From contig NZ_JARFTP010000023.1 of assembly GCF_029167375.1 (NCBI RefSeq), positions 1 to 64,000 of the forward strand: a stretch of DNA of 64,000 bases. Direction: 5' to 3'. Source of the DNA: Tsukamurella sp. 8F. GTDB lineage: Bacteria > Actinomycetota > Actinomycetes > Mycobacteriales > Mycobacteriaceae. Shown piece by piece: positions 762-38,731 of this stretch (positions are counted from its first letter, which is position 1; each line of letters begins with the position of its first letter). The translations under genes and the position numbers were made by a program. The notes below the pieces were generated by a model, which had not been told where the DNA came from, did no database searches, and saw only the letters and a list, made by a program, of their open reading frames with translations.

Positions 762-821
762 TAACGAGCTGGCGGTGAGTGCTTTGGGGTTCCGACGACC
801 GCGTGGATGGAGGTGCAGCAG

Positions 822-3797
822 GTGCTGACGATCGCGCGTCTGTCGAAGTGGGGTGTGAAGTACTACAGCGACACAGCGCGGGCGGTTGAGGCGACGCTGC
901 AGGACCAGCGGTCGAGTGAACGTGTCGCGGCGGGTGTGAGCGTCGGCGCAGCAGAGCCGGTCACGGGGGCATCCGATCACGACGAGAGTGCGGTGGAGCG
1001 GTCGAAGCGGTCGGCCGGAGGTGGACTGGGGGAGTACTACACCGAGCACAACACGCGGGCTCCGGTGTGGATCACCGCCGGCGACCGCCCCACGGTCGAG
1101 GGCATCGTCGGTGTCACCGACGGAGTGACGGCCAGTAACGACGCGGTCGACAAGTGGATGCAGGAGGGGGTCGCACCGTCGGGGGCGACCGGACAGAAGA
1201 TCCCGGAGGCGCTGTCGGGGAAACGCGCCCCGGTGCACGGCTTCGATCTGACGTTCTGCGCGCCGAAGAGCATCTCGATCATGCGCGGTTGCGCCACAGG
1301 TTCCGATGAGGCGGATGTGCTGCGACGCGCGCACGACACGGCGGTGCGGTCGGCGATGGAGTACCTCGCCGAGCACGCCGGATACTCACGGGTGCCGAAC
1401 AAAAAGACCGGCAAGAAAGATCTGGTGAAGCTGCCGGGGCTGACAGCAGCGGCGTATCAGCACGAGACCTCCCGCGCGGGGGATCCGCACCTGCACACGC
1501 ACGTGGTGATGCCGAACCGGCAGGCACGCGCCGACGGCAAACTCGTATCGATCGACTCCAAATCGCTGTACCACGAAGCCCGCGCCGCTGGCACCATCTA
1601 CCAGGCCGTGCTCCGCGACGAGGTCGCCCGCGAGCTCGGGTGGATGTGGCGTGACGTCGACACCCGCACCGGGCAGGCCGAGCTCGCGATGGTCTCGCGG
1701 CAGTCGATCAAGGACTGGTCGAAGCGGGCGACCCGACTGCGAGAGTGGGCGCAGCAACACTACGGCGATCGCACGAGCGCGCCGTCTCCGAAACAGCTCG
1801 AAGTCGCTCAGAGAGCCACCCGACCTGTGAAGGCCGAAGAGCTCACGTGGGCACAGTTGCAGCAGAAGTGGGCCGATGATTCCCGCACCGTCACCGTCGA
1901 CCATGACGGGCACAACCAGGCGGCCGAGAAGTTCGCCGCCCGCGACCGCACCATCCCCGACGCGCGGTCGATCCGCGAATGGGTGGCCGCCGCCGACAAG
2001 ACCGAACTGACCCGCGCCGACCTCGTCGAGATCCTCGCCGCGCACTGGCCCACCCTCGCCCAAGACCTACCTGCCGACGACGTGCGCGGCGGCATCGAGG
2101 CCGCAACCGCGGGGGTGCTGCTACCGATCCAGGCGAGCCGCGAAGCACACCAACGGGAAGGATCGATCACCTACACGAGCGAGGAGATCGTTCTCGAAGA
2201 ATTGGAAGCGCTCGAAGCGGCCGTGGAGTCCGACGAGGACACCCGATTCTTCGTCGACCGCGACGCAGACATCGCACCGTTCAAGCTGTCCGAGGACCAG
2301 TCCGAGGCGATCAGCGAGATCGCCGCGTCACCGCACCGGGTGCAGGTCGTGCAAGCCCCCGCCGGCGCCGGCAAGACGCGATCGCTGAAAGCGCTGCGCC
2401 ACATCGTCGAGGACAACCGGTACCGCAACCACCGCGCGAACATGTGGGTCCTCGCCCCTACCGGCAAAGCCGCCGACGGTGCCGCGCAGGACGGTGCCGC
2501 CGCACACGAAAGGTGCGCGACCATCGCCAAGATCCTCGGCGACATCGACCGCGACGACCACGCCGCCTCGCTGCCGTTCGGCAAGCGTGACGTCATCGTC
2601 GTCGACGAAGCCGGCATGGTCGGCAACGACAAGATCGCGCGGCTCATCGCCCACACGAAGGAGACCGGCGCCAAACTCGTCCTAGTCGGCGACAGTCACC
2701 AGCTGCAGCCGGTCGCCGCCCGCGCCGGACTATTCGACGACCTGCACCGCAACCTGCCATGGAGCCACGACTATCGACAGGTATTCCGAGTTCGCAGCGA
2801 AGAAGAACGCAAAGCCGGGCTGTGGCTGCGCCACGGCACCGGCCTCGAGAAGCGCGCAGCCATCTCCTGGTACGGCTCCAACGACCGCTTGCACGCCGGC
2901 GACGAAGTCGTCATGGCCGACAAGGCATGGAACGCGTTCGTCGACGACCGAGACGCCGGCCGCGACACCATGCTGGTCGCCGGCACCCGCGAGATGGTGT
3001 GGTCGCTCAACCGCCGCACCCAGCAGTACCTCCACGGACACGACGACGTCGACCGCGAGATTCAATACGGGCGCCAGGTGTCCGCGCACAGCGTGCCGAT
3101 CGCCAACGAACACCGCGCGATGATCGGCGACACCATCATCACCCGCAGCAACGACCCCACCCTCGCCATCGCACCCCACAAGGAAGGCGACGACGTCGAC
3201 CAAGTCCGCAACGGCCACCGCTGGACCGTGCACAACATCCTCGCCGACGGCACCATCCACGCCGTCCGCACCCACGACGACGCCCGCGCCGTCCTCACAC
3301 CGGACTACGTCCGCGAGAACGTCGACCTCGGCTACGCGGCCACCGTCCACACCGCCCAAGGCGCCACCGTCGACCGCACCCACGCACTGATCAACACCGG
3401 ACGCGCCACCGCCGAAATGCTGTACGTCGCCATCACCCGCGGCCGCGACCGCAACGACATCTACATGCAGCACAGCGACGACATCTCCGACCACGGACAC
3501 GAACCCCACCGCGACCCCGATGACATCATCGAATACGAGCGCCCAGTCGCCGCATCGATGATGCACCAGGTCGTCGCCCGCAGCAGTCGCCAGCGCACCA
3601 CCATGCAAGCCATCGACGACGCCCACCACGACAACAACGCCGCCCCATGGACCGGCCGCGCCCGCGACATCGCCGACGCACTAAGGCAGCGAGCCCACGA
3701 CGCCTACGACCACGACAACAACCGCCGCCGCGGCCGCACCGACGATGCCGCACGAGACGCCGGCCGCACCGACGACGGACCGACGCTGGACCTCTAG
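822..3797 (+). CDS. traA: MobF-family conjugative relaxase-helicase (TraA/TrwC type)
   Basis: Nicks oriT, stays covalently bound to the transferred strand and unwinds it. The N-terminal TrwC-type domain starts LTIARLSKWGVKYYSD, with candidate nucleophile tyrosines. The metal-binding three-histidine motif is in HETSRAGDPHLHTH near residue 214. A superfamily-1 helicase follows, with Walker A APAGAGKT near residue 515, Walker B VIVVDEAGM, LVGDSHQLQPV (motif III), VHTAQGATVDRT (motif V) and YVAITRGRDR (motif VI). The C-terminus is rich in Arg and Asp. About 990 residues is usual for two-domain MobF relaxases. I prefer GTG 822 over ATG 807 because GGAGG at 809-813 is eight bases upstream and gives the usual MLTI start. 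The gene appears intact, and it has no downstream partner close enough to be an operon. Confidence 0.93.
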   Translation: MLTIARLSKWGVKYYSDTARAVEATLQDQRSSERVAAGVSVGAAEPVTGASDHDESAVERSKRSAGGGLGEYYTEHNTRAPVWITAGDRPTVEGIVGVTDGVTASNDAVDKWMQEGVAPSGATGQKIPEALSGKRAPVHGFDLTFCAPKSISIMRGCATGSDEADVLRRAHDTAVRSAMEYLAEHAGYSRVPNKKTGKKDLVKLPGLTAAAYQHETSRAGDPHLHTHVVMPNRQARADGKLVSIDSKSLYHEARAAGTIYQAVLRDEVARELGWMWRDVDTRTGQAELAMVSRQSIKDWSKRATRLREWAQQHYGDRTSAPSPKQLEVAQRATRPVKAEELTWAQLQQKWADDSRTVTVDHDGHNQAAEKFAARDRTIPDARSIREWVAAADKTELTRADLVEILAAHWPTLAQDLPADDVRGGIEAATAGVLLPIQASREAHQREGSITYTSEEIVLEELEALEAAVESDEDTRFFVDRDADIAPFKLSEDQSEAISEIAASPHRVQVVQAPAGAGKTRSLKALRHIVEDNRYRNHRANMWVLAPTGKAADGAAQDGAAAHERCATIAKILGDIDRDDHAASLPFGKRDVIVVDEAGMVGNDKIARLIAHTKETGAKLVLVGDSHQLQPVAARAGLFDDLHRNLPWSHDYRQVFRVRSEEERKAGLWLRHGTGLEKRAAISWYGSNDRLHAGDEVVMADKAWNAFVDDRDAGRDTMLVAGTREMVWSLNRRTQQYLHGHDDVDREIQYGRQVSAHSVPIANEHRAMIGDTIITRSNDPTLAIAPHKEGDDVDQVRNGHRWTVHNILADGTIHAVRTHDDARAVLTPDYVRENVDLGYAATVHTAQGATVDRTHALINTGRATAEMLYVAITRGRDRNDIYMQHSDDISDHGHEPHRDPDDIIEYERPVAASMMHQVVARSSRQRTTMQAIDDAHHDNNAAPWTGRARDIADALRQRAHDAYDHDNNRRRGRTDDAARDAGRTDDGPTLDL

Positions 3798-4473
3798 CTG
3801 TTGCGGGGCGGAACGTATTGACGGCGCTCAACCGTCAGAAGTTGGACGGCGTGGGCTCGTCGACGCCCTCGGAGTCTCGTTCATGGCACTGTGTCCCAGT
3901 TTTAGATCACGCTAGGTGGCTACTGGCCGGGCCGTGTTGTGTACCAGTGTGTGAAGCGTCGCAAGTTCCGGAAGCGGACGGCCGTTGAGCTGTCGATTCA
4001 TCTGTAGTGGAATGGTGGGTGTTTTGTACTGCGTCATACGGTTGCTGGATGTGGATCTCGCTCCATACAAGCCGTTCTTATCTGTGGTGTCGCACACGGG
4101 AGTCACATCGCTGACTGGACTTGCCGGGGGTGAGGCGAACGTTCTTTCGAATAGCAGCGACATCTGCGTTGACCCCGGGGGCGTTCACGGAGTTCGTCCT
4201 CCGCGCGTTCTACAACGCGGCGTCGCGGCGACATTCCGCAGACCTGCCGAGATACTCCCACCGATTCGCGACGACGATCAGTTCTAATGAGCAGCGGCTG
4301 GTCCACATCGGTGTTCCTGATGTCGATCTTTGAGGATGGGGCATCTCTCGAACGATGCTCAGTTCGAGCGGTCGAGCATCTTGCCTAGGGGCCGACCCCT
4401 GCCAGGCCGACCGCCGCGACGGGGTACTGAGATTCCTCGGTATCCCGTATCGCCGGCGACCCGAGCCGCGGGT
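3798..4473. other. 676-bp region without a confident gene
   Basis: No reading frame here has a convincing start, ribosome-binding site and recognisable protein. A weak hairpin, TGACGG-CGCTCAA-CCGTCA at 3819-3837, lies 22 bases after the relaxase stop and may end its transcript. A plus-strand frame that closes with KRRKFRKRTAVELSIHL at about 3950-4008 has no start of its own and may be the decayed tail of a lost gene. The composition is less GC-rich than the neighbouring genes, consistent with degraded sequence. Confidence 0.4.
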
Positions 4474-5088
4474 TCAGTCTCGTTCGGCGAGAGGGCGCAG
4501 GTCGATCCGTCGGCGGCTTTTAGCGGAGATCATCCCGGGTGCGAGGGTGGTCCAGAAGGTGTGGATGCGCGCAACGAGGTCGGCGCGATTGGTCAGCGCT
4601 TCGCTGACCACTTGAGTGCCTGCGACTGCCGAGACGATGATGTGGGTGGCGGCCTCGGGTGGGATCGTCAGTTCGCCGCGGCTGTCGGCTGCGTCGAGGT
4701 GGGGACGGATGTCGTCGATCCATGCTTGGTACTGGTCGGGTTCGTCCGGATGTCGTTCGAAGGTGTTGCGTTCGAGGGTGAGTCGGACGCTGGCGCGTGC
4801 GAGGACGTCGGTCTCGAGGGCTCGGGCGAAGCGGTAGACGAGGTCGACGACGTGTTGTAGCGAGGCAGAGCCCGGCCTGGCATCGGGGGATCGCCACTCG
4901 GCCTGCTCGGCGACGATGGCACGAGCAAGCGCCTCTTTCGACTCGAAGTGAAAGTAGGCAGCGCCCTTGGTGACATTCCCCTCGGACAGGATCTCAGCGA
5001 TGGTGGCTGCCGCGTATCCGCGGCGCTCGAATACGGACGCAGCGGCGTGGAGCACGGTGGTTCGGGTTGTCGTCGCTCGTTCTTGCAC
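4474..5088 (-). CDS. TetR-family regulator, gamma-butyrolactone receptor type (ScbR/ArpA-like)
   Basis: A 204-residue TetR-family repressor. The N-terminal helix-turn-helix spans about residues 5-55 and includes TTVLHAAASVFERRGYAAAT and GNVTKGAAYFHFESKEALA. The KGAAYFHF form is typical of the ArpA/ScbR group, whose members bind gamma-butyrolactones or butenolides and then release ARE operators. The C-terminal ligand domain has the usual length. The gene is divergent from an AfsA homologue across 135 bases that contain a strong palindrome, the arrangement of classical autoregulator loci in Streptomyces. It probably represses both itself and afsA. Ligand identity cannot be read from sequence. 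Confidence 0.85.
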   Translation of the reverse strand: MQERATTTRTTVLHAAASVFERRGYAAATIAEILSEGNVTKGAAYFHFESKEALARAIVAEQAEWRSPDARPGSASLQHVVDLVYRFARALETDVLARASVRLTLERNTFERHPDEPDQYQAWIDDIRPHLDAADSRGELTIPPEAATHIIVSAVAGTQVVSEALTNRADLVARIHTFWTTLAPGMISAKSRRRIDLRPLAERD

Positions 5089-5168
5089 GTTGGTGATTGT
5101 TTCACTGTCCCGGGGCCTCGGCGGCTCCTGCCCTTGCGTACTAGTAGGTCGCTGGTCACACTAGCACG

Positions 5169-5188
5169 CGAACCGCATGGACGGTTCG
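5169..5188. promoter_or_regulatory. ARE-like operator between the TetR regulator and afsA
   Basis: CGAACCG at 5169-5175 and CGGTTCG at 5182-5188 form a perfect inverted repeat around CATGGA. The ACCG-N6-CGGT core resembles autoregulatory elements bound by ArpA/ScbR repressors. It lies 36 bases before the afsA start and about 80 bases before the divergent regulator start, so one bound dimer could control both promoters. A near copy lies at 7004-7023. Confidence 0.65.
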
Positions 5189-5223
5189 TTCCTGGTGAGC
5201 TCGTCGACACAGAGGAGGGTGTT

Positions 5224-6102
5224 GTGACCGATGTGATGGAGGAGCCGGTCTCTGACGGGCTCTGTGATCTCGTGCATAAGACCGTCGAGACCGCGGCATT
5301 GATCCAGAGCTGTCAGGTCGGTGATCGTGGGCGATGTACCGCCGGAGTCGACTGGTCGCCGTATCGGACCGCCACGTACTCCCGTGCCGGGGCCGTAGAT
5401 CTGGTCGTTCTGGCGGAGACCGTGCGGCAGCTGTCGATGGCGGTGGCTCACGTCGGGTTCGCGGTGCCGCGAGCGTCGGCGTTCGCGATGTCGCGTTTGA
5501 CTGCCGAGGTCGGAACGGGAATGGATGCGCTCACGCCATCGGAGCGGGTCGAGGTCACAGCGGAGGCGACGTGCCGGGACGTTGTGATGCGCGCCGGCGC
5601 ATTGGACCGGATGTCGGTCGACGTCGACCTGGTGGCATCCGATCGACGGATCGGTCGCGGTTCCAGCTACTTTCGCGTTCTTCCTGCCCAGGTCTACAGA
5701 CGCCTCCGAGGGTCGCGCCGACCTCGGGGGCGGGTCAGCAGTCGCTCACGGTTCCCACCTACGCAGGTAGGGTGCGGCTCCGCTCGGGACGTTCTCTTGG
5801 GGCCGGCGGCCTCCGACGACGGTGTGCATCTCGTCGTCGATACCACGCATCGCGGCTACTTCGATCACCCGAACGACCATGTTCCCGGAATGGTGGTGGT
5901 GGAAGCCAGTAGGCAGATGTACCAGCTCCGCCGGCGGCGTGTGCCGACGAAGATGGACGCCCGCTTCCACGTCTACCTCGAACTCGCCGCGGACCCGCTG
6001 ATCGAGATCGACGATGGGATCGACGGGTCGCCGGTGATCCGTACGTACCAGGCGGATACATCCGCTGCGGAAGTGTCCTTTGGCAAGACTGTCCCGCAAT
6101 GA
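5224..6102 (+). CDS. AfsA-family gamma-butyrolactone/butenolide autoregulator synthase
   Basis: A 292-residue AfsA/ScbA homologue, the enzyme that condenses a beta-ketoacyl chain with dihydroxyacetone phosphate to start A-factor-type signal synthesis. Two AfsA hot-dog repeats are visible. The first includes VRQLSMAVAHVGFAVP near residue 65, and the second HPNDHVPGMV at residues 215-224 followed by EASRQM. E227 and R230 match the position of the catalytic Glu-Arg pair described for ScbA. The GTG start at 5224 has GAGGAGGG 5-12 bases upstream. The gene overlaps the next by four bases and is divergent from its likely repressor. The segment before repeat two contains an Arg-rich stretch, but both halves look intact. 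Confidence 0.88.
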   Translation: MTDVMEEPVSDGLCDLVHKTVETAALIQSCQVGDRGRCTAGVDWSPYRTATYSRAGAVDLVVLAETVRQLSMAVAHVGFAVPRASAFAMSRLTAEVGTGMDALTPSERVEVTAEATCRDVVMRAGALDRMSVDVDLVASDRRIGRGSSYFRVLPAQVYRRLRGSRRPRGRVSSRSRFPPTQVGCGSARDVLLGPAASDDGVHLVVDTTHRGYFDHPNDHVPGMVVVEASRQMYQLRRRRVPTKMDARFHVYLELAADPLIEIDDGIDGSPVIRTYQADTSAAEVSFGKTVPQ

Positions 6103-6950
6103 CTTTCGCGCTGCTCGTGACGGGCGGCGCCGGGTTCATCGGTTCGGCCGTCGCACGGGAGCTGAGTGCGCGCGACGATATCCGGGTGACCTGGGTAGCG
6201 CACCATCGGCGGGTGCCGTCGCAGCCGGGCCGGAGCCGGGTGATCACACGCAATATAGCAGATCCTGCGTCCATTCGCGGGATCACCGTCGGTGCGGATG
6301 CGGTTCTCCATCTCGCCCACGCGATCACGGGTCCTGTCGAACGCCTTGTCGCGGTCAACGATGTGGGGGCCCGGACGATCGCGCACGAGGCCGCCACGAC
6401 GGCAACGCGGCTGGTGGCTGTGAGCACCGCCGCGGTCTACGGCCACGCCCTGTCTCCGGGTGTGGACATCCACCAGCTCCGCGAAGCTCCCGGTTCTGCT
6501 GTCAGTGCGACCCGAACCGCAGGCGACAAGCACATCGTGGACGCCGGCGGAACCGTCGTGCGGCCCCATCTCGTACTCGGTGCCGGCGACCGCTGGGTCA
6601 TCCCCCGCGCGGCTGATCTCGTGGCCCGGTTCGGTTGGGCGATCACCGGCGACGCGGTGCACTCCGTCATCGACGTCGATGACCTCGCCGTCCGCCTGAT
6701 CTCGGCCGCCGTCGATGATCCCGCGCCCCCCGGCGTGTGGCTCGCCGCCGAACGTACGCCGCGGTCCCTGCGCCCTTCCATCGCGACCGAACTGCAGCGC
6801 AGAGGCCTGCGACCCGCCGATCCGACCGAACCGGCACGCATTACGTCGTCGGCGGAGTCTCAGGCGCTTGAGCACGACCGCATGCTCCTGTCGACGAACC
6901 ACTACCTGACGTGCACCTGCGCGAATGCTCCGGCCGCGTTCCGAACCTGA
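6099..6950 (+). CDS. NAD(P)-dependent epimerase/dehydratase-like protein (ScbB-like position)
   Basis: A 283-residue extended short-chain dehydrogenase fold protein. The Rossmann motif VTGGAGFIGSAV is at residues 7-18, and VSTAAVYG in the middle is the serine-region strand of this family. The usual YxxxK catalytic pair is altered: the lysine of GDKHIV has threonine four residues before it instead of tyrosine. The gene overlaps afsA by ATGA, so the two are probably translationally coupled. In Streptomyces clusters ScbB-type proteins sit beside AfsA and act in reduction of the signal precursor, so a role in tailoring the signal is likely by context. With the missing tyrosine it could instead be a binding or atypical reductase protein. 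Confidence 0.75.
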   Translation: MTFALLVTGGAGFIGSAVARELSARDDIRVTWVAHHRRVPSQPGRSRVITRNIADPASIRGITVGADAVLHLAHAITGPVERLVAVNDVGARTIAHEAATTATRLVAVSTAAVYGHALSPGVDIHQLREAPGSAVSATRTAGDKHIVDAGGTVVRPHLVLGAGDRWVIPRAADLVARFGWAITGDAVHSVIDVDDLAVRLISAAVDDPAPPGVWLAAERTPRSLRPSIATELQRRGLRPADPTEPARITSSAESQALEHDRMLLSTNHYLTCTCANAPAAFRT

Positions 6951-7003
6951 AACAGACTGCACCAGAGAGGCATTCCATACACATCAGTTGCGCTTCTGGC
7001 AAG

Positions 7004-7023
7004 CAAACCGCATGTGCGGTACG
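7004..7023. promoter_or_regulatory. second ARE-like operator, upstream of the Rieske gene
   Basis: ACCGCATGTGCGGT at 7007-7020 is a perfect 14-base palindrome. Across 23 aligned bases (7003-7025 with 5168-5190) it matches the operator before afsA at 19 positions, with the ACCG-N6-CGGT core spaced identically. It lies about 72 bases before the oxygenase start, suggesting that the same TetR repressor controls the biosynthetic genes. Confidence 0.65.
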
Positions 7024-7094
7024 TTGTCGTCGACGCCGACGTTCGGCGTGACCGAGACGAAGTCAGTACGCCTGTAGCTGATAGGAGGAACCTG

Positions 7095-8258
7095 ATGGTG
7101 GACTGGTCGGCAGCCCGCTTCCACGGACGACACGAGTACGAACAGGAGGAGGACGCGATCTTCCGCAGCCGATGGATGTGCACGGTCAAGGCCTCGGAGC
7201 TGTCCGAGCGCGGTAGCTTCCGCACAGTGGAGGTCGGCGGCGAGTCGATCCTGCTGGTGCGCTCCAAGGACGGCATCGCCGGATATGTGAACCTGTGTCT
7301 GCACCGAGGATATCCTTTGTGCGAGAATGCGAGCGGTCGGTTCCGTGGCGCCATCACGTGCGGATACCACGGTTGGGCATACGGATTCGACGGCAAGCTC
7401 AAGGGCATCCCACTGCGGCAGGATTTCGAGGACGTGCCGCAGGGGAGCCTGCACCGCGTGCAGACCGACGAATGGCTCGGTTACGTGTGGGTCAACCTCG
7501 ATCCGCACGCGCGATCGCTCCACGCCCAGATCGATCCGCTGCTGGAGGCTCGGTTCGGCGATCTCGACCTGCCTGCCCTGTACCGCCCGGATCAGTTGGA
7601 GGTCGCCGCATCACGTGAGTATGTGGTGGAGGCGAACTGGAAACTGATCGTCGAGAACTTCTGCGAGTGCTACCACTGCCCGACAATGCACCCCGAGATC
7701 TGTAAAGCGCTGCCGGAGTGGCGATCCGGCTACGGAACCGTCAGCGGTCACGAGGGCAGGCCGAACACCGACGGATCCCAGCTCTCCCCCAAAGCCACCG
7801 GCTTCTCCCTCTCCGGTACGGCCGTCGCCGCCCCCCTGCCCACCGTGCCGGACCGGTACCTACGCACCTTTCATGGCCTGTTGCTGTGGCCGAACGTGCA
7901 CGTGATGTTCCTGCCGGACCACGTGATGTGCCAACGTTTCTTCCCACTGTCGGCGACACGCACCAAGATCGTCTCGGACTGGCTCTTCCACCCGGAGGCG
8001 ATCGCCGCCCCCGGATTCGACCCTTCCGATGCGGTCGGCCTCGTCGATACGACCGCCCGGCAAGACTTCGACGCATGCGAGCGGGTCCAGCGAGGGGTCA
8101 CCTCGCGATTCTTCAGCGAGCGCCACACACCCCATGAACAGCTCATCGCGGGATTCAGGGCATGGATCGACGCTCAGCTGGGTGCCTCGCTGGACGATTC
8201 CGTCGAGCCCGGTACATCCAGCGCCGACGACCTTTCCGACGCGCACGCCGCAGTCTGA
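7095..8258 (+). CDS. Rieske non-heme iron oxygenase, alpha subunit
   Basis: A 387-residue ring-hydroxylating-type oxygenase. The Rieske [2Fe-2S] ligands are C68-L-H70 and C89-G-Y-H92. The mononuclear iron site is in ENFCECYHCPTMH, with H194 and H199 as ligands, and a QDFDAC stretch near the C-terminus supplies the probable carboxylate. ATG 7095 has AGGAGG seven bases upstream. No ferredoxin, reductase or beta subunit is encoded nearby, so electrons must come from host proteins, as in GbcA/choline-monooxygenase-like Rieske enzymes that it resembles in overall form. It sits 26 bases before the polyketide synthase, so it probably oxidises the polyketide or its precursor. The substrate is unknown. 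Confidence 0.85.
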   Translation: MVDWSAARFHGRHEYEQEEDAIFRSRWMCTVKASELSERGSFRTVEVGGESILLVRSKDGIAGYVNLCLHRGYPLCENASGRFRGAITCGYHGWAYGFDGKLKGIPLRQDFEDVPQGSLHRVQTDEWLGYVWVNLDPHARSLHAQIDPLLEARFGDLDLPALYRPDQLEVAASREYVVEANWKLIVENFCECYHCPTMHPEICKALPEWRSGYGTVSGHEGRPNTDGSQLSPKATGFSLSGTAVAAPLPTVPDRYLRTFHGLLLWPNVHVMFLPDHVMCQRFFPLSATRTKIVSDWLFHPEAIAAPGFDPSDAVGLVDTTARQDFDACERVQRGVTSRFFSERHTPHEQLIAGFRAWIDAQLGASLDDSVEPGTSSADDLSDAHAAV

Positions 8259-8284
8259 TCCACCCGACGCTGAGGGAGGCCCGC

Positions 8285-9457
8285 ATGGTCACATCGATTC
8301 CCACGCTCCACAAACCAGCCACCTATCTCCCCGACCACGTCATCACACTCGAGGAGACGCTCGCACTGATCACGCGCGAGCACGCGAACGCCCGAGCCCT
8401 CGATCAGGCCCTCAGCATGATCGCCAACACAGGTGTCCAGGCCAGGCACCTCATCGACCCCATCGACCGCGTGACAGCCCCTCGCGGATTCGGAGAGCGC
8501 AACCGCACATTCGAAGCCGAGGCCAAGCGTGTCACACCGGCGCTCGTCGACGAAGCCCTCGACCATGCTGGACTCGACCGCCCCGACATCGACGCCGTGA
8601 TCTTCGTGTCCTGCACGGGGTTCATGATGCCGTCCATGACCGCATGGCTGATCAATCGGCTGCGCCTGGACCCGACGACCGTCCAGATCCCGATCTCCCA
8701 ACTCGGCTGTGCCGCCGGCGCGGCCGGAATCAACCGCGCAGCAGACCACGTGCGCGCACACCCTGGAGCGAACGCCGTAGTCGTCAGCTGCGAACTATGC
8801 TCCCTGTGCTATCAACCCGCCGACGACAGCGTCGGAAGCCTGCTGTCGAAGGGCCTGTTCGGTGACGCGATGTCCGCCGCGATCGTTTCCTCAGGCCCCA
8901 CAGCGACCGACGCAGACGGCCTCCAGATCCACAAGGTCGGCAGCTATCTCATCCCAGACACCGAGAGATGGATCTCTTACGACGTGCTCGACAGCGGCTT
9001 CCACTTCCGCCTGGACAAGCGAGTGCCATCGATGATGGCCCCCATCGCACCCCGGATCGCACAGTTCGCCGCCGACTACGCCTGGGACGTCGACGACCTG
9101 GACTTCTACATCATCCATGCCGGCGGGCCGCGGATCCTCGACGAACTCGGCACCAGCCTCGAAATCCCCCTCGACGAGTTCCACCACAGCCGCGAGACCC
9201 TCACCCAGTGTGGGAACATCGCCAGCTCCGTCGTTCTCGAAGCGACCGCCAGAAGCTGGGATGCCGGGGTCATCAGCCCCGGAGCACGTGGCCTGCTCGC
9301 AGGGTTCGGCCCAGGAATCACCACCGAATCCTCCCTGCTGACCGCCGTCGGCGAATTCCCCACCACGCAGACCCTGCCGACGGCATCCACACCGATGCGC
9401 GGCTCGCACGGCGACCGCGAACTCGTAGCCGCCCACACCCCGGCCAAGCCACGTTGA
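8285..9457 (+). CDS. type III polyketide synthase (chalcone synthase superfamily, RppA-like)
   Basis: A 390-residue homodimeric-type ketosynthase that extends a CoA starter with malonyl-CoA and cyclises the product. The Cys-His-Asn triad is visible: C142 in QLGCAAGAAG, H278 in FYIIHAGGPRIL and N311 in CGNIASS. GFGPGIT near the C-terminus is the family's conserved loop. Length and motif spacing match bacterial RppA-type tetrahydroxynaphthalene synthases, but alkylpyrone or alkylresorcinol synthesis is equally possible. The start ATG has GGGAGG at 8274-8279. It follows the Rieske gene by 26 bases and overlaps the exporter gene by TTGA, so all three form one operon, probably under the operator at 7004-7023. 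Confidence 0.88.
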   Translation: MVTSIPTLHKPATYLPDHVITLEETLALITREHANARALDQALSMIANTGVQARHLIDPIDRVTAPRGFGERNRTFEAEAKRVTPALVDEALDHAGLDRPDIDAVIFVSCTGFMMPSMTAWLINRLRLDPTTVQIPISQLGCAAGAAGINRAADHVRAHPGANAVVVSCELCSLCYQPADDSVGSLLSKGLFGDAMSAAIVSSGPTATDADGLQIHKVGSYLIPDTERWISYDVLDSGFHFRLDKRVPSMMAPIAPRIAQFAADYAWDVDDLDFYIIHAGGPRILDELGTSLEIPLDEFHHSRETLTQCGNIASSVVLEATARSWDAGVISPGARGLLAGFGPGITTESSLLTAVGEFPTTQTLPTASTPMRGSHGDRELVAAHTPAKPR

Positions 9458-10068
9458 CGCACACCCTCCTGAGCGGATACGTCGCCGGGTTCGCGCTTGC
9501 GATGCCACTAGGGCCGTTCGCGATCCTCCTGATCGGTATCGCCGCCCGCAGCTCGATCCGAGTCGCCCTATGGGGCGCACTCGGTGCCGCCCTGGCGGAC
9601 GCCGTCTACGCCACCGTGGCGGTCTTCGCCGGGGCAGCAGCCGCACGGATCATCGCCCCGGTCGAAAGCGAGCTCCGGATCGCGGCCGGAGTCATCCTCA
9701 TCGGCATGGCCCTCTACATCGCGTCGAGTGCCCTCAGACAGGACAAAGGCGACACTCCTCAACGCGCGATCACGCTGACACCGATCCGCGTGTTCCTGAC
9801 CCTCTTCACCCTGACACTGGTCAATCCGTGGCCGCTGGTGTACTTCACCGCACTGGTACTCGGCGGCGGAATCGGCACAGGCTCAGTGATATTCAACCTC
9901 GGCTACGTGATCGCCGTCCTACTCGGATCACTCACCTGGCAAGCACTCATCGCCTCGGCAGGCGGGCTCGTCGGACGACGGATCCTCGCCGGAGCAGGAC
10001 GCACGGTCTCCAGCCTCCTATCCGCCGCTCTGATCATCGCCCTGTCCATCTTCATGATGGTCGGATGA
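9454..10068 (+). CDS. LysE/RhtB-family exporter
   Basis: A 204-residue integral membrane protein with about six hydrophobic helices. The N-terminal GFALAMPLGPFAILLIG carries the PxGP signature of LysE-type transporters, and VNPWPLVYF fits the conserved NP motif of the fourth helix. The TTG start overlaps the polyketide synthase stop by four bases, giving translational coupling. Family members export amino acids and small metabolites. In this operon the likely cargo is the polyketide product or the butyrolactone-type signal, which is inference. Confidence 0.78.
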   Translation: MTHTLLSGYVAGFALAMPLGPFAILLIGIAARSSIRVALWGALGAALADAVYATVAVFAGAAAARIIAPVESELRIAAGVILIGMALYIASSALRQDKGDTPQRAITLTPIRVFLTLFTLTLVNPWPLVYFTALVLGGGIGTGSVIFNLGYVIAVLLGSLTWQALIASAGGLVGRRILAGAGRTVSSLLSAALIIALSIFMMVG

Positions 10069-10304
10069 GCTGGCTACCCGAGGGTCCGTTCTAGCGCAAC
10101 ATACGCACCGCAGAGGGGCGGAAGCTCGCCGAAGAAGTCATGGGAATCGGTGCGTACTCGGTTCAGCCGCTCCAGCTCTTCCCTCAAGATAGGTTGCCCC
10201 GGGTAGCTGCCGAGCTGGATCCTGCGCTCACGTCGCCGGGCTTGGATCGTCGAGTCGGGGAGACGTCGGCGTTGTGGTCTGGTCGCTGCAGGGTGTCGGC
10301 TGCG
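10069..10304. other. gap with a possible MarR-like C-terminal remnant
   Basis: No intact gene is seen in these 236 bases between convergent operons. A plus-strand frame at about 10096-10200 reads TAEGRKLAEEV and then a short tail. It resembles the winged-helix end of a MarR-type regulator but has no start or DNA-binding helix before it. I treat it as a possible decayed fragment. Confidence 0.25.
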
Positions 10305-10958
10305 TTAGGTCGTCGGGGGCAGGCCGAATAGTCGGAGTGCGGTGTGGGCGATGTGTGGTGGTCCGTCGGTGTGGAAGTGTCCGGTGGTGGCCGCGTCGGT
10401 GATGGACATCGTTCCTGAGCCGATGGCGGCGAGGGTGGGGAGGTCGGTGGTCACTGTCAGGTCTGGTGGGCGGGATTGGTCGGTGGTGACGGTGACGGTG
10501 GCGTTGGTGACCAGGGCGTAGAGGGTGGCGGCGGGGGTGTCGAGGCGGTAGCAGTGGTCGACGTCGGTTGCGTGTTCGGGGTGGAATGCGGAGGTGATGG
10601 TGAAGGCGAGCCAGTCGGGGTCCCAGTGGTCGGAGGGCGGCGCTGGTGGGAGGGTGGCCGCACCCCAGCGTGTCAGGGGTGCGAGTGCTGCTGCGAGTGC
10701 TCGGCCGTGGTCGGTGAGTCGGTAGACGATGCCGCTGGGTTCGCTGGTGACGGCTCGCTCGATGATGTCGTCGTGTTCGAGTTGCTTGAGGCGGTTCGAC
10801 AGGAGGCTGGTGCCCAGACCGGGGAGACCGTCGAGCAGTTCGCCGAAGCGGCGGGGGCGGACGGCCACGTCTCGGACTATCAGCAGTGTCCATCGTTCGC
10901 CCACGAGGTCTAGTGCGTGTGCGAGTCCGCAGTACTGGCGGTAGCTCCTGCGTGTCAC
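10305..10958 (-). CDS. HxlR-family transcriptional regulator with SCP2-like C-terminal domain
   Basis: A 217-residue protein. Residues 1-100 form an HxlR winged helix: YCGLAHALDLVGERWTLLIV, then RRFGELLDGLPGLGTSLLSNRL and the wing region ending in YRLTDHGRAL. Residues 110-217 look like a sterol-carrier-type C-terminal domain (LTVTTDLPTLAAIGSG), a known actinobacterial fusion that probably senses a hydrophobic ligand. The GTG start overlaps the stop of the upstream membrane protein gene by four bases, so the two are co-transcribed. A long open frame continues upstream without a usable start, so I do not extend the gene. It probably controls the divergent hydrolase promoter. Confidence 0.82.
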   Translation of the reverse strand: MTRRSYRQYCGLAHALDLVGERWTLLIVRDVAVRPRRFGELLDGLPGLGTSLLSNRLKQLEHDDIIERAVTSEPSGIVYRLTDHGRALAAALAPLTRWGAATLPPAPPSDHWDPDWLAFTITSAFHPEHATDVDHCYRLDTPAATLYALVTNATVTVTTDQSRPPDLTVTTDLPTLAAIGSGTMSITDAATTGHFHTDGPPHIAHTALRLFGLPPTT

Positions 10959-11764
10959 AGTGTTGCAGTATCCCTGACCGGCGGCGTCGTCGTCGGGAGG
11001 TGGGTGCGGCGTAGCGCTTGGATCATCAGCACGTGGAGGGTGGTCGCGGTGGTCACCAGGAACGTGGGGAACAGCAGCATCGGTGGCTCGGCGAACATCG
11101 CCGTGTCTGCCGATCCGTGGAATATGCGCAGGACGCCGGGGTAGTTCCCCAGCCCGAGGGTGACGGCCATGAGCATCTCTGCGAATCCGGCGACACCCCA
11201 TGCCAGGAACAGCCGGCGCCAGCGTGTTCCCGGGGTGTGTACCTGTGCATGACGGAGATAGACGATCGCCGCGGCACCGGGGGCGGTCACACCGATAGCG
11301 ACGTCGCCCCAACCGGCGGGGTAGGCGAACAGCGCCGGCAGCGTGCCGCGGTGATGCAGTTCGATGAATACCGATCCGACTACCCGCCCGGTTTCGAACA
11401 GGGTCAGCAGCGTGAGCGGTACCCGCGCGCCGAGCCCGCGCAGCAGGTCGCCGGATCGCCGCGCCAGGGCGGGGACGACGACGATCGGTATCGCCCAGGT
11501 GATCAGTACCCACAGCGGAACCCATCGGCCGGCGTCGGCACCGAACAGGATTCCGGCCCGGGCCAGCGCGACCACGGCGACGAGCCATGCGATCCAGACC
11601 GCGCACGCCGCCGCGCCCCACCGTGCCGCATCGGCGCGGCCGCTGGATGTGCGCCGTGCCAGGTAGACGATGCCGCCGATCGCGAGTGGCACCACGCCGA
11701 TGGCCGTCAGTACCGGTACCGCGACTTCTGTGGGGATGACGACCCCCTGTGATGTGGTTAACAT
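10955..11764 (-). CDS. polytopic membrane protein of unknown function
   Basis: A 269-residue protein with about seven hydrophobic segments, for example VAVPVLTAIGVVPLAIGGIV, AVWIAWLVAVVALARAG and LWVLITWAIPIVVVPAL, and no recognised catalytic motif. It is translationally coupled to the HxlR regulator and divergent from an alpha/beta hydrolase gene across a 60-base promoter region. The context suggests a small stress- or substrate-responsive unit of membrane protein, sensor and hydrolase. I do not assign transport or enzyme activity. Confidence 0.7.
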   Translation of the reverse strand: MLTTSQGVVIPTEVAVPVLTAIGVVPLAIGGIVYLARRTSSGRADAARWGAAACAVWIAWLVAVVALARAGILFGADAGRWVPLWVLITWAIPIVVVPALARRSGDLLRGLGARVPLTLLTLFETGRVVGSVFIELHHRGTLPALFAYPAGWGDVAIGVTAPGAAAIVYLRHAQVHTPGTRWRRLFLAWGVAGFAEMLMAVTLGLGNYPGVLRIFHGSADTAMFAEPPMLLFPTFLVTTATTLHVLMIQALRRTHLPTTTPPVRDTATL

Positions 11765-11766
11765 TC

Positions 11767-11779
11767 AAGTAGAGTACTT
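11767..11779. promoter_or_regulatory. palindrome in the divergent HxlR-operon/hydrolase promoter
   Basis: AAGTA-GAG-TACTT forms a 13-base inverted repeat in an AT-rich patch, three bases upstream of the membrane-protein start and 46 bases upstream of the hydrolase start. The similar string ACAAGTAG follows at 11785-11792. The size and place suit an HxlR-dimer operator for both promoters. Confidence 0.45.
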
Positions 11780-11824
11780 CTAAAACAAGTAGCACACAAC
11801 GGTGTGTCGTCCAGGAGGTCTCCC

Positions 11825-12724
11825 ATGGATGTCTATCGCCGCTACGACGTCGATCTCGTCGTCGACGGCACGCCCTGCGCCGCGTGGCTGTACCGGCCCA
11901 CGGGCGGAGGGGCCTATCCGATCGTGGTGATGGCGCACGGCCTGGGAGGGCAGCGCGTGTTCGGCCTGGAGCCGTTCGCCGAGGGGTTCGCGGCGGCCGG
12001 GTACGCGGTGCTGCTGTTCGACTACCGATACTTCGGCGGCAGCGGAGGACAACCGCGTCAGCTCGTCGACATACGACGTCAGCTCGACGACTGGCGCGCC
12101 GCGATCGCCTTGGCGCGGGTGCTTCCGGACGTGGACGCCGACCGCATCGCACTGTGGGGCACGTCGCTGTCCGGCGGACACGTACAGGTGTTGGCGGCGC
12201 ATGATCGCCGCATCGGGGCGGTCATCGCCCAGGTGCCGTTCGTCGACGGTCTGGTCTCCGCCGCGTCCACCCCGCCCCGGCAGGGTGCTCGGCTGATCGC
12301 GGCAGGGATGCGTGACGTGATCGGGACCCGCCTCGGCCGCGCCCCGCACCGGATCCGGTTGTTCGGTCCGGCCGGTGGCACCGCGGTGATGTCGGGCCCC
12401 GGCGTCGAGGAAGCCATCCGCACCATGATGCCGCCCGGCCAGTGGGATGAGACGGTACCCGCGCGCCTCGTACCGCAACTCGCCCGCTACCGGCCCGGGC
12501 GCTGCGCCGGCGACGTCACCTGCCCGATGCTCTACCTGATCGGCGACCACGACGACATCACCTCACCCACCGCCGCAGCACGCGTCGCACGCCGAGCACC
12601 CGACGCCGAGCTCATCCATTACCCGATCAACCACTTCGACATCTACACCGACAGATGGCGCGACACCGCGATCGCCGACCAACGCGACTTCCTCGACCGG
12701 AACCTTCCCCTCCGCTACCGCTGA
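11825..12724 (+). CDS. alpha/beta hydrolase (X-Pro dipeptidyl-peptidase/dienelactone hydrolase-like)
   Basis: A 299-residue serine hydrolase. The oxyanion region is VVMAHGLGG, the nucleophile elbow is WGTSLSGGH with serine of GTS as nucleophile, the acid is in GDHDDITSP, and the catalytic histidine is in NHFDIYTD near the C-terminus, in the usual order. ATG 11825 follows AGGAGG by seven bases. No signal peptide is seen, so it is cytoplasmic. It diverges from the HxlR/membrane-protein operon and is probably controlled by that regulator. Its substrate, an ester or amide, cannot be deduced. Confidence 0.82.
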   Translation: MDVYRRYDVDLVVDGTPCAAWLYRPTGGGAYPIVVMAHGLGGQRVFGLEPFAEGFAAAGYAVLLFDYRYFGGSGGQPRQLVDIRRQLDDWRAAIALARVLPDVDADRIALWGTSLSGGHVQVLAAHDRRIGAVIAQVPFVDGLVSAASTPPRQGARLIAAGMRDVIGTRLGRAPHRIRLFGPAGGTAVMSGPGVEEAIRTMMPPGQWDETVPARLVPQLARYRPGRCAGDVTCPMLYLIGDHDDITSPTAAARVARRAPDAELIHYPINHFDIYTDRWRDTAIADQRDFLDRNLPLRYR

Positions 12725-12887
12725 TCACCCGCCGGCATGGCCGGGTAGCAGGCGCGCGTCATCGGGACGCCGGATCGGGATGGACGATCGTCGGCGACCG
12801 AGTACGCCACGCCCAGGTCGCCGGAGAGGTGGCTGTTCGGCACCACTGTGCTCCAACTGCCCGGACGGATCGGCTGGGTGGCCGTGT

Positions 12888-13205
12888 TCAGGCGTGGAGG
12901 TATCTGCGGAGGAAGGTGTGCCATGTTCGGGTGTAGCTCTCGGCGAGTGTCGAGTCGGGTGCCAGTCTGTCCCAGGCGTGGAAGGCGCCCGCGTAGACGT
13001 GCAGATCAGTCGGAATGCCTGCGGTGATGAGTCGTCGTGCGAAGTCGATGTCCTCGTCGCGGAAGACATCGAACTGGGCTGCGGCGATGCGGGACGGCGG
13101 GAAACCGCTGAGGTCGCTCGCTCGGCCTGGGGCGGCGACGGGGTCGACGACAGCGGCACCGGTGTCATCGACAGCCCATCCCATACCACCCCCAGCAAAG
13201 GCCAC
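12888..13205 (-). pseudogene. C-terminal fragment of an Aes-type esterase/lipase (alpha/beta hydrolase fold 3)
   Basis: The 105 residues match only the last third of hormone-sensitive-lipase-type esterases: FDVFRDEDIDFARRLITAG supplies the catalytic-aspartate strand and VYAGAFHAWDRL the histidine. The oxyanion HGGG and the GDSAG nucleophile, normally about 100 and 170 residues further upstream, are absent. Sequence beyond 13205 is unrelated. This is the remnant of a gene truncated by a deletion or insertion at about 13200. Confidence 0.65.
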
Positions 13206-13569
13206 CGCGCCCTACAACAGCTGGCCGAGAACCGGTGGGACCTCGCAGTGAGACCGAACCGCTACGTGGACGCACCCACCGCCGTCGCCGACCGCGATCG
13301 GATCCACGGCAGCAACTACAACTGGACCAGAGAGGAACTCGTGCAACGGTGCGGCAAAGAGCTGGATCACACGCTGCTGGCGGACTGGGCGCGTACGAAG
13401 ACCAACGCCGTGCGGCTTCTACGAGGCGGTCGCCGCACATGACGACGGGACGAAGCGTGGGAACAGCCCGGCTTGAAGGTGTCGTCCACGGCCGCGGCTT
13501 CCCCATCGCGTGCCGGCGGCGATCACCGGTACTGATCGGCCCTACCAGAGTCGGCAGTGATCGAGCTCA
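13206..13569. other. region with only a short unassigned frame
   Basis: No confident gene. A plus-strand frame from GTG 13248 to 13442 would encode 64 residues, including YNWTREELVQRCGKELDHTLL, that look protein-like but match no family I recognise, and no ribosome-binding site is clear. The frame stays open further upstream without a start, so this may be the tail of a gene lost at the same junction that truncated the neighbouring esterase. Confidence 0.25.
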
Positions 13570-14745
13570 TCATCTCTGAGGCGCAGCCGTAGATGCGCCT
13601 GACGTTCGCGCTCGGTGAGTCGTGAGCATGTGGGTTGCGATCGCTACCAGAGCCAGGGCGGCGGCGACCCAGGGCAGATGAACGAATCCGACTCCGATGC
13701 CGAGTGCGATACCACCGGCGCCCGCGCCGAGGGCCTCGCCGAGGTAGAGGGCCGACGAGTTCAGCGAGACGGCGACGGTGGGCTGGTCGGGTGCCTCGGC
13801 GATCAGGCGGTGCTGCTGGGGCGGGGTGAATGCGACCATGGCCGCGCCCCACACCAGGGCGATCACGGCGACGACAGTGACAGAGCCCGCGAGGGGCACG
13901 ACCAGCAAAGTGAGAAGGAGCAGTAGCAGGGTGCCGGTGATGGTGGCGTCTGCCCCGACGTGGTCGGTCAGTACTCCAGAGGCCAACGACCCGACGAAGG
14001 CGCCGATCCCGTAGAGCACCAGCAGCACGGTCAGGACCGTCCCGTCGACGTCGACGGTGGCGTGCAGGATGTCGGCGATGTAGGTGTAGGCGGTGATGCC
14101 GGCTCCGACGGCGAACGTGGTGACCGCCAGCACCGACAGGATCCGAGGGTGTGCCAGCAGACCGACCCGCACGCGTAGTGATGCGGCGCCGCTCTCCTGC
14201 GCGGGCGGGTCCCCCAACGCGGCGCCGATCGCGACGGCCGCGCACGCGCCCATGGCAGCGACTAGCAGGAGCGCGGCACGCCACGTGAATGTCTGGGCCA
14301 GAGTGGTGCCGGCCGGGACGCCGACCGCGATGGCGCCGTTGAGCCCGCTCATCACGACTGCGACCGCACGCCCGCGATGCTGGGCGGATACCAAGGCCGT
14401 GGCCGTGCCGACGGCGGCGGGCGTGAATGCCGCCGCACCGAGCGCTGCCACCCCACGGGTCGCCAACAACACCGACAGGGTCGGCGACATCGCTGTACCC
14501 AGGTTGGCCGCGGTGAAGACGGTCAGGGCCGCCACCAAGACCCTGCGCGGCGGCAGGTGCGCCGTGGTGGCTGCGATGACCGGCGTCGCGACCGCGTACA
14601 CCACCGCGAACACCGTGACCGCCTGCCCTGCGGCGGCCTGCGTAGTCGACAGCGATGCCGCCAACGCGGGCAGAATCCCGCCGAGGATGAACAGGTCGGT
14701 GCCGATTGCGAACGCCCCGAAGCCGAGCAACCACACCTTGCGCAT
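13570..14745 (-). CDS. MFS transporter (AraJ/chloramphenicol-efflux type)
   Basis: A 391-residue major-facilitator permease with about 12 hydrophobic helices. It starts MRKVWLLGFGAFAIGTDLFI, typical of DHA1-type drug efflux proteins. RRVLVAALTVF after helix two is the conserved loop A region, and GVPAGTTLAQTFTWR near helix five is the antiporter motif C region. The ATG has GGGAGG upstream. It lies 133 bases downstream of a LysR regulator on the same strand, which may control it. Likely function is proton-coupled export of a small molecule or drug. Confidence 0.82.
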   Translation of the reverse strand: MRKVWLLGFGAFAIGTDLFILGGILPALAASLSTTQAAAGQAVTVFAVVYAVATPVIAATTAHLPPRRVLVAALTVFTAANLGTAMSPTLSVLLATRGVAALGAAAFTPAAVGTATALVSAQHRGRAVAVVMSGLNGAIAVGVPAGTTLAQTFTWRAALLLVAAMGACAAVAIGAALGDPPAQESGAASLRVRVGLLAHPRILSVLAVTTFAVGAGITAYTYIADILHATVDVDGTVLTVLLVLYGIGAFVGSLASGVLTDHVGADATITGTLLLLLLTLLVVPLAGSVTVVAVIALVWGAAMVAFTPPQQHRLIAEAPDQPTVAVSLNSSALYLGEALGAGAGGIALGIGVGFVHLPWVAAALALVAIATHMLTTHRARTSGASTAAPQR

Positions 14746-14878
14746 GGCCAGACCTCCCGTGTCGAATCCGGGCTCCGGTGTGTTCCGGTGCCCATCGACC
14801 AGACGACCACGCCGCGACCACGGGATCGAGAAGCAGATCGCGCACGAGCGTTCATCTCAGATGAACGGTCCCACGAAG

Positions 14879-15781
14879 CTATGAGTCAGCCGCCAGCTCA
14901 GTGCGCAATTCGGGGATCAGCCCGACCACGGCGGCGACGCCGGGTTCGTCAGTTCGGTCGCGCCAGACCAGGTGGAGTCGGTGCTGCGGACCGCGCTCGA
15001 CCAGTGGGATCACTCGCACACCCGGATGGGTGATGTCCGCACGGTGCGAATGCACCAGAGCGGAGCCCGCGCCGGCGGCGACCAGCGACAGCTGTTGTTC
15101 CTGCTCGTGCAGCCGATGCAGTCGCCAGACCGGGCGTACCTGCTGCTCGGCGAAGAATCGTACGGTTGCATCGTGCACCCCGGGTGCGGTGTCGCGTTCG
15201 TTGAGCAGGAACCGCTGCCCGTCGAACTGCGCCATCGACAGCCGAGTACGCCCGGCCAACGGCCCTGGCGCGGCGACCGCGACGAAACTGTCCTGGTAGG
15301 TCGCCACCACCGTCGAGTCGACCCCGTCGGCGGGCAGCGGGTCCCGGACGATCCCCAACGAGAGGTCACCGCGCAACAGCGCGGCCAGCACGTCCAGGCT
15401 CCACATCGACTCAGCCACCAACTCCACCCCAGGTCTGCGCGCGGCCACGCGACGACCGAGAGCATCGATCAGGTGCGCCGAACCCGGCGCGAATCCCACC
15501 CTCAGCCGGGCCTGTTCGCCGGTACGCATCCGAGACGCGTCCTCCGACAGCTGGTCCGCGGCGACCAAGACAGCCTGTGCGCGCCTCAGTAGCTGCGTCC
15601 CCGCATCGGTCAACGCCACCCGCCGACTCGTGCGCTCGAACAGCACAACGCCCAGCTCACGTTCCAACGCCTGGATCCGCTGCGTCACCGACGCCGGCAC
15701 AATACGCAACCTGTCCGCCGCACGACCGAAGTGCAGCTCCTCAGCAACCGCGACAAAAAACTCCAGATCCCGTAGCTCCAC
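14879..15781 (-). CDS. LysR-family transcriptional regulator
   Basis: A 300-residue LysR regulator. The N-terminal winged helix reads VELRDLEFFVAVAEELHFGR, AADRLRIVPASVTQRIQALE and LFERTSRRVALTDAG, followed by a periplasmic-binding-fold effector domain (LRVGFAPGS to VRVIPLV). I chose GTG 15781, with GGAG seven bases upstream; another GTG at 15799 would add six residues. It precedes the MFS gene on the same strand and may regulate it. Confidence 0.85.
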   Translation of the reverse strand: MELRDLEFFVAVAEELHFGRAADRLRIVPASVTQRIQALERELGVVLFERTSRRVALTDAGTQLLRRAQAVLVAADQLSEDASRMRTGEQARLRVGFAPGSAHLIDALGRRVAARRPGVELVAESMWSLDVLAALLRGDLSLGIVRDPLPADGVDSTVVATYQDSFVAVAAPGPLAGRTRLSMAQFDGQRFLLNERDTAPGVHDATVRFFAEQQVRPVWRLHRLHEQEQQLSLVAAGAGSALVHSHRADITHPGVRVIPLVERGPQHRLHLVWRDRTDEPGVAAVVGLIPELRTELAADS

Positions 15782-15900
15782 CACCCCACTCCAACACACC
15801 GACCGAACAGCCAGCGGCTCCCGATTGATGAGGCATCATCTCCGACGGTGAGGGAGTGCAGCGCCGGGCCGTCAGTTCTGGTCTATGAGCTGGCGGATCG

Positions 15901-20694: not shown

Positions 20695-20919
20695 ATGACC
20701 GACTACACCCCCGACTGGCTCAAGCCCCAGCAACACCTCCTCGACCAACTCCCCGCCGCAGACCGCCGCCGCGTCATCGCGGCGCTGCACTCCGGCTGGC
20801 TCGAAGGAGTCGACTACGACGACGACGCGGTCAAGGCCGTCATCGACGGCATCGACCACGGAATGGAACCTGCAGACCTCGCCCGACGCGTCCTCGAACA
20901 GCGACGTGAGCAGCGGTGA
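20695..20919 (+). CDS. VbhA-like antitoxin of a Fic toxin
   Basis: A 74-residue helical protein. SGWLEG at residues 33-38 matches the inhibitory motif (S/T)xxxE(G/N) of class I Fic antitoxins, whose glutamate, here E37, blocks the ATP site of the partner. WLEGVDYDDDAVKAVIDGI continues the helix pair typical of VbhA. The gene overlaps the toxin gene by 14 bases. It would neutralise the downstream enzyme and may repress the operon. Confidence 0.8.
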   Translation: MTDYTPDWLKPQQHLLDQLPAADRRRVIAALHSGWLEGVDYDDDAVKAVIDGIDHGMEPADLARRVLEQRREQR

Positions 20920-33535: not shown

Positions 33536-33841
33536 TCAGAAGATGCGATTGATTCCGAGAAGCTCGGCGGCCTCGATCAACGGCGCAGTGTGTTTGCCGA
33601 TCGAGTCCGATGTGGGCGCGACGACGTCGACGCCTGTTCCGTCGTCGGTCTTCCGCATCCACACGGCCCAGTTCTGTATGCCGGTGCCTTTCTTCGACGG
33701 GTAGGCGATGCCGACAGGTCGGGACCCGTCGTCGAGCGTGATCTGCTCGCGGATGCGGGATGCGATCGCCGTCGTCAGCCGCCAGAGGCGGAGTAAGTCA
33801 GCGCCGCAACCTCTTTCAAGAGCCGGTGTCCGCGAGGACAT
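33536..33841 (-). pseudogene. C-terminal gene fragment (RES-domain-like)
   Basis: The reliable part, about 80 residues, reads RLTTAIASRIREQITLDDGS, then GIAYPSKKGTGIQNWAVWMR and ends LGINRIF. The IAYPSKKG...WAVWMR pattern resembles the end of RES-type NAD-degrading toxin domains (I-x-Y-x-S-R-H-G...WALF), though I am unsure. The frame continues upstream only by overlapping the next gene, and no ribosome-binding site is suitable, so it looks like a tail cut off from its gene. Confidence 0.4.
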
Positions 33842-36449: not shown

Positions 36450-36462
36450 CCGGGTATCTCCT

Positions 36463-38681: not shown

Positions 38682-38731
38682 TGGTGCCTCCCTTGTCGTG
38701 GTGCCCGTCCCGTCGTAATGGAACCACGTGG

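Follow-up and report, generated by a model that had tools for sequence, protein, structure and literature searches.

Gene content of the locus

The window analyzed here is a stretch of 64,000 nucleotides (nt) from Tsukamurella sp. 8F (contig NZ_JARFTP010000023.1, positions 1 to 64,000), and our subject is a block of six genes at 4474 to 10068, in which a gamma-butyrolactone (GBL)-type signaling module is followed by genes for a Rieske oxygenase, a type III polyketide synthase (PKS), and a LysE-family exporter. Open reading frames (ORFs) and profile matches bore out the gene content of the original prediction, an earlier reading made from the letters alone. Each of the six genes has an intact frame, and their order is the one claimed, with tetR on the minus strand diverging from an afsA-epimerase pair on the plus strand, and the Rieske gene, the PKS gene, and lysE following, all on the plus strand. 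The genes and two predicted operators are as follows.

4474 to 5088, minus strand: tetR, ScbR/GblR-type autoregulator receptor, 204 amino acids (NF041196, 186.9 bits)
5169 to 5188, no strand: operator 1, palindrome resembling an autoregulatory element, in the tetR-afsA intergenic region
5224 to 6102, plus strand: AfsA-family butyrolactone synthase relative, divergent, 292 amino acids (PF03756, two stretches)
6099 to 6950, plus strand: NAD-epimerase/dehydratase, GblE/JadW2-like (PF01370)
7004 to 7023, no strand: operator 2, resembling operator 1, 72 nt upstream of the Rieske start codon
7095 to 8258, plus strand: Rieske non-haem iron oxygenase alpha subunit, 387 amino acids (PF00355, PF00848)
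8285 to 9457, plus strand: type III PKS, RppA/tetrahydroxynaphthalene-synthase-like, 390 amino acids (1u0m match; PF00195, PF02797)
9454 to 10068, plus strand: LysE-family exporter (PF01810)

The most likely start of afsA is the GTG codon at 5224, behind GAGGAGGG, in place of the ORF start at 4948; those of the Rieske gene and lysE are most likely ATG 7095 and TTG 9454. The epimerase gene overlaps afsA by ATGA (6099 versus 6102). The coupling claimed for a "reductase-like gene" stands, but its product belongs to the PF01370 epimerase family and is of the GblE/JadW2 kind, not a plain reductase. Similarly, lysE overlaps the PKS gene by TTGA (9454 versus 9457), and a gap of 144 nt separates the end of the epimerase gene from the Rieske start. 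No direct repeat of at least 24 nt was found within 3700 to 10700.

Predicted operators

Operator 1 is a perfect 7+7 palindrome with a 6-nt spacer, and operator 2 is nearly identical to it: the 30-mers of the two sites are equal at 24 of 30 bases, compared with 20 of 30 at the runner-up position in the window. When the 4.68-Mb genome was scanned with the operator 1 20-mer at up to three mismatches, the only two matches were operators 1 and 2, and the reversed control gave 0. In 20,000 mononucleotide shuffles of the region upstream of the Rieske gene, no match to operator 1 was as good as operator 2. Given that the operator is common to both promoter regions, one repressor probably governs both the autoregulator module and the PKS operon, which agrees with the earlier claim that the two are joined on a conjugative-type contig. 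The tests of the pair that we lean on are the 20-mer genome scan, the 30-mer comparison, the shuffles, and scans with a published motif. The case rests on the likeness of the two operators and on their positions, not on motif score.

The autoregulatory element (ARE) AAACVGNNBVNNCSGTTT has been derived from footprints of SfbR and SfbR2 in S. filipinensis (PMC7480387). Operators 1 and 2 are each two mismatches from this motif and have the same 6-nt spacer geometry. Matches this good fall within -400 to +60 of afsA in 20 of 29 other loci of the order (L009 to L037; the order is taken throughout as Mycobacteriales, sampled as 397 genomes), compared with 19 of 2000 control segments, these being 460-nt stretches drawn at random from other actinobacterial loci, mostly Streptomyces. 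Over whole loci, the match density was 0.47 per kb versus 0.039 per kb in the controls, and the window's own genome, with 167 forward matches over 4.68 Mb, has a rate similar to that of the controls. The counts near other afsA genes take in only matches upstream of afsA; four perfect ARE-matching palindromes near 1240 or 2546 in their loci (L015, L022, L023, and L025) lie 3' of afsA between convergent genes, may be terminators or operators, and were not counted. The recurrence of ARE-like sites near the afsA start suggests that GBL regulons could be predictable across the order.

Two further patterns were set aside. The pattern CRWACCG-N6-CGGTWYG, drawn from what we take to be the ArpA consensus, has five perfect occurrences in the genome, operators 1 and 2 included, but it was written after both sites had been seen and is not independent; of the other three, one falls in a ligase-like frame (judged by eye), another in a possible ORF, and the third outside any likely ORF. 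A pattern built from both operators was found twice against 0.30 expected, which is circular and was given no weight.

Signaling and biosynthetic proteins

The TetR protein lies above the NCBIfam equivalog cut-off for ScbR (186.9 bits versus 150 for NF041196) and is the sole regulator in the genome to do so, with the runner-up at 70 bits. Among solved structures, it is closest to AvaR1, a GBL receptor, a TetR regulator, and CprB, and the alignment with AvaR1 extends across the ligand domain, including one tryptophan that is presumably important for the ligand. In the receptor tree, it clusters with two Streptomyces plasmid receptors and one other locus (L026) with support of 97/94. This ScbR-family receptor adjoins the synthase gene as its divergent neighbor. 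The AfsA relative has two PF03756 hotdog stretches (79.8 bits versus a cut-off of 24, E 2.4e-22), and no second AfsA match was found elsewhere in the genome. It keeps 11 of the 13 columns that are invariant across 35 homologues, Glu65, Arg68, Asp214, His215, and His219 among them.

In the biosynthetic half, the best solved relative of the PKS is 1u0m (E 1.1e-126), which we take to be the S. coelicolor tetrahydroxynaphthalene (THN) synthase; the 346 aligned residues include the Cys, His, and Asn segments, which we assume to be the catalytic ones. Both domains of the Rieske enzyme are over their Pfam cut-offs (58 bits for PF00355 and 145 bits for PF00848). Its best relatives in the 397 order genomes are 40% identical, and in genome contigs of 84,980 species none among the best 80 of 216 exceeded 41%. 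The predicted product is likely a THN derivative that is oxidized by the Rieske enzyme and exported. A search of one literature collection for papers joining a type III polyketide synthase, a Rieske enzyme, and tetrahydroxynaphthalene found none there.

Distribution in Mycobacteriales

The genome itself belongs to Tsukamurella or close to it: a chromosomal nuoD-like gene is 81.9% identical to that of Tsukamurella tyrosinosolvens and 75.7% to that of Mycobacterium intracellulare, and the longest match of a 20-kb chromosomal stretch, covering 29% at 77% identity, also lies in Tsukamurella, both comparisons drawing on records labeled as plasmids. AfsA relatives (E <=1e-10) occur in 36 of the 397 order genomes, own genome included. 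Within the genus, relatives at 1e-5 were found in 3 of 16 genomes, again with its own counted, and the two others are 30 to 37% identical over part of the length. The original prediction had described AfsA systems as best known from Streptomyces, which was overstated, given these counts, the presence of AfsA in Rhodococcus (PMC5735094), and an AfsA gene on the plasmid pDF01. Among 29 other afsA loci, a receptor relative lies within 1.5 kb of afsA in 20, an epimerase homologue stands beside afsA in 13, and the layout of tetR divergent from afsA-epimerase is found again in 7. PKS relatives at E 1e-60 are present in 14 of the 397 genomes, own genome included.

The carrier contig

The contig carries type IV (T4SS) and type VII (T7SS) secretion genes of the transfer kind, and this part of the original prediction held up: a relaxase, a coupling protein, VirB4-like and TcpC-like proteins, and ecc genes were all found.

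807 to 3797, plus strand: TrwC/MOBF-type relaxase-helicase (PF08751, E 5e-60)
19091 to 20575, minus strand: type IV coupling protein (PF02534, PF12696)
27478 to 30018, minus strand: VirB4-like conjugation ATPase (PF12846)
30707 to 31612, minus strand: TcpC-like conjugation protein (PF12642)
40619 to 59086, minus strand: T7SS block with EccA, EccE, S8 protease, EccD, MinD-like, EspG, FtsK-type, EccB, and NlpC/P60 proteins (profile matches)

In the T7SS block, the FtsK/SpoIIIE protein occupies the place of EccC and is so named by position. By its gene content, the contig is of the known mycobacterial T4SS+T7SS conjugative-plasmid kind and would be a plasmid or an integrated element; it is 66,023 bp long and has no exact end overlap of at least 15 bases. 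The VirB4-like ATPase shares 31 to 35% identity with those of mycobacterial plasmids among 20 records listed out of 266. Relaxase relatives are 42 to 48% identical; at E 1e-150, they are present in 7 of 351 family genomes, own genome included, and in 0 of 15 other genomes of the genus. The six stretches beside related relaxases have no cargo in common with the window; they match in the relaxase alone, with a 174-residue match to the ORF at 33816 to 36611 added in one.

Between the cassette and the transfer genes (10228 to 15799) lie genes for an HxlR regulator, a 269-amino-acid protein without a Pfam match, an MFS transporter, and a LysR regulator, for which we saw no link to the cassette. A Fic/DOC-family gene (20906 to 21646) adjoins the coupling protein gene, and a small WXG100-like ORF (62696 to 63019, judged by eye) lies beside the T7SS block on the opposite strand. 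On the transfer-gene side, a perfect 7+7 palindrome with a 6-nt spacer (39038 to 39057) stands directly before the start of the minus-strand ORF at 37614 to 39035; it resembles a regulator operator and differs from operators 1 and 2.

Proposed mechanism and alternatives

We favor reading the six-gene block as a self-contained biosynthesis cassette, gated by a signal and carried on a conjugative-plasmid-type contig, and we give this a probability of roughly 0.62. AfsA and the coupled epimerase would make a butyrolactone-type signal. At low signal, the ScbR-like repressor would occupy both operators, keeping afsA and probably tetR silent from operator 1 and the Rieske-PKS-LysE operon silent from operator 2. 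With this predicted polarity of control, accumulation of the signal would take the repressor off both operators and induce afsA further, and the induced PKS would yield a THN-type product for modification by the Rieske oxygenase and export through LysE.

Several observations weigh against this reading. The genome has many matches to the published ARE at up to two mismatches, 167 forward and 172 reverse, compared with 125 and 127 for the reversed control. Shuffles of the two upstream regions reach two mismatches in 243 (operator 1) and 318 (operator 2) of 20,000, or 1 to 2% each. The window is not enriched in ARE matches, with 12 observed versus 7.28 expected and 12 of 100 shuffles reaching 12. 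By a position weight matrix from other loci, operator 1 comes 16th and operator 2 4th among the positions of the window; of 1,567,474 background positions, 208 and 66, respectively, score equally high. A scan of 3800 to 10300 with the sigma-70 consensus gave no promoter. The AfsA relative falls below the ScbA/BarX equivalog cut-off (188 versus 200 bits for NF041195) and is therefore named AfsA-family here, not a ScbA/BarX equivalog. Two invariant positions are changed in it, with Gln28 in place of a Thr and Thr49 in place of a His that are each found in 35 of 35 homologues. It is at most 31% identical to members of the tree set and is a long-branch outlier, its end branch of 2.23 being the longest by far in a tree with a median of 0.41; its placement there has no support (52/67). 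Given that the protein is an outlier, lies below the cut-off, and has lost two invariant residues, it may make another signal or none. The gene block also has no reductase partner for the Rieske enzyme, and its electron-transfer partners must be supplied by the host. Lastly, AfsA and PKS searches found no conserved six-gene block of the sort that the original prediction had proposed to look for, and the block was not found elsewhere in the searched genomes and loci, collections from which the window's own genome and its very close relatives may be missing.

That the GBL module and the Rieske-PKS operon are independent cargo, adjoining by chance and with no co-regulation, is in our judgment unlikely. 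In the 5 other genomes that have both AfsA and PKS, the two are on separate contigs or at least 340 kb apart (adjacent in 0 of 5), and in 1.5-kb flanks there were no Rieske relatives near 15 PKS loci and no PKS relatives near 29 Rieske loci, all of which would fit chance adjacency. Among wider Rieske loci (the best 80 of 216), only L085 has a PKS relative, 35% identical and about 8 kb off, and no AfsA, receptor, epimerase, or LysE relative was found at 1e-6. The near-identical operator pair, found nowhere else in the genome and equaled in 0 of 20,000 shuffles, argues against independence. The original prediction had foreseen trouble if the two halves never co-occurred and were not co-regulated; non-adjacency was indeed seen in this sample, whereas the operator pair speaks against a lack of co-regulation.

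A second alternative is that the receptor senses the polyketide or another antibiotic, in the manner of a pseudo-receptor, with AfsA degenerate or making another product and the PKS operon under feedback control. An antibiotic-binding pseudo-receptor that shares the AREs of the receptor has been described (PMC7480387), and the unusual divergence of AfsA with its two lost invariant residues would suit such an arrangement. The AfsA frame, however, is intact and 11 of 13 invariant columns are kept. The isoelectric point of the receptor is 6.2, whereas pseudo-receptors are typically basic proteins. We consider this alternative improbable.

A third alternative, suggested earlier, is that the signal serves also or chiefly to time transfer of the element, which we hold to be highly improbable. 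In its favor, relaxase, T4SS, and T7SS genes share the contig with the signal genes, a weak ARE-like match (62251) is found close to the T7SS block, and added GBL raised the efficiency of intergeneric conjugation in another actinomycete, there a laboratory transfer into Nonomuraea and not self-transfer of an element (PMC10676335). Against it, no specific operator copy at up to three mismatches in the 4.68-Mb genome lies at any transfer gene, the palindrome at 62251 is poor, and the published motif occurs in the window at a frequency in line with chance.

The signal-gated cassette could have a further consequence, which we put forward only tentatively and think rather doubtful. Given that the single AfsA and the single ScbR-class receptor detected in the genome both sit on the element, the signal might report the density of element carriers, so that the element would carry its own census and switch on a carrier-encoded new aromatic polyketide whose THN core is oxidized by an atypical Rieske enzyme; the signal of the divergent AfsA might be of a distinct type and private to the element. 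If so, the cassette would act as a transferable module, for a public good or for competition, that responds to the density of carriers and not of hosts. The cassette would be a compact example, outside Streptomyces, of a butyrolactone switch for which the operon under its direct control can be predicted. Its predicted chemistry comprises a Rieske-dependent THN derivative and the signal of a divergent AfsA, and it would be a case in which chemical signaling and the metabolic output that it governs travel as a single cargo on a conjugative element of the mycobacterial type.

Comparison with known systems

The window is like mycobacterial T4SS+T7SS conjugative plasmids, for which we take pRAW to be the type name, in having a MOBF relaxase, a VirB4-like ATPase, a coupling protein, and ecc genes together, and it differs from them in its signaling-PKS cargo. 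One such plasmid, pJCM12603 of Mycolicibacterium poriferae (MOBF), has eccCa, espG, eccB, MinD-like, eccD, S8 protease, eccE, TraM-recognition protein, VirB4-like ATPase, and eccA genes in one stretch. The window PKS is like RppA/THN synthase (1u0m) over 346 residues, but the neighbors of three Streptomyces plasmid relatives of THN synthase are cupin, aminotransferase, methyltransferase, and aromatic prenyltransferase genes with no Rieske gene, whereas those of the window PKS are the Rieske oxygenase and LysE genes only.

Control of plasmid-borne polyketides by a plasmid-borne autoregulator is represented by SrrX/SrrA of pSLA2-L, which, unlike the window, is a Streptomyces linear plasmid with large PKS clusters and other signal chemistry. 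Among AfsA-bearing plasmid records, 1 of 145 is typed conjugative. The plasmid pDF01 of Rhodococcus sp. p52, typed conjugative and MOBF, has AfsA, ScbR, and oxidoreductase genes, in an order unlike that of the window and with a second ScbR gene; no PKS or Rieske gene is annotated within the 24.8 kb examined.

GBL-like signaling in Rhodococcus is on record, given that gblA is required for a GBL-like molecule in R. jostii RHA1 and such clusters are reported from two plasmids of R. opacus R7 (PMC5735094). The gblA-gblR-gblE genes of R. jostii RHA1, also of the Mycobacteriales, are of the same kinds as those of the window (AfsA homologue, TetR receptor, and NAD-epimerase). There, gblR stands between gblA and gblE and the neighboring genes are not conserved, whereas in the window tetR diverges from the afsA-epimerase pair, behind which comes a PKS operon that shares the operator; the excerpted text of that paper names no target operon for the Rhodococcus receptor (PMC5735094). 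The window AfsA is at most 30 to 31% identical to the Rhodococcus plasmid members compared. In summary, the type of switch is already known, and one conjugative plasmid of Rhodococcus has been recorded as carrying a GBL module; what look new are the pairing of such a module with a PKS, the predicted operator common to both, and the small Rieske-PKS-LysE operon.

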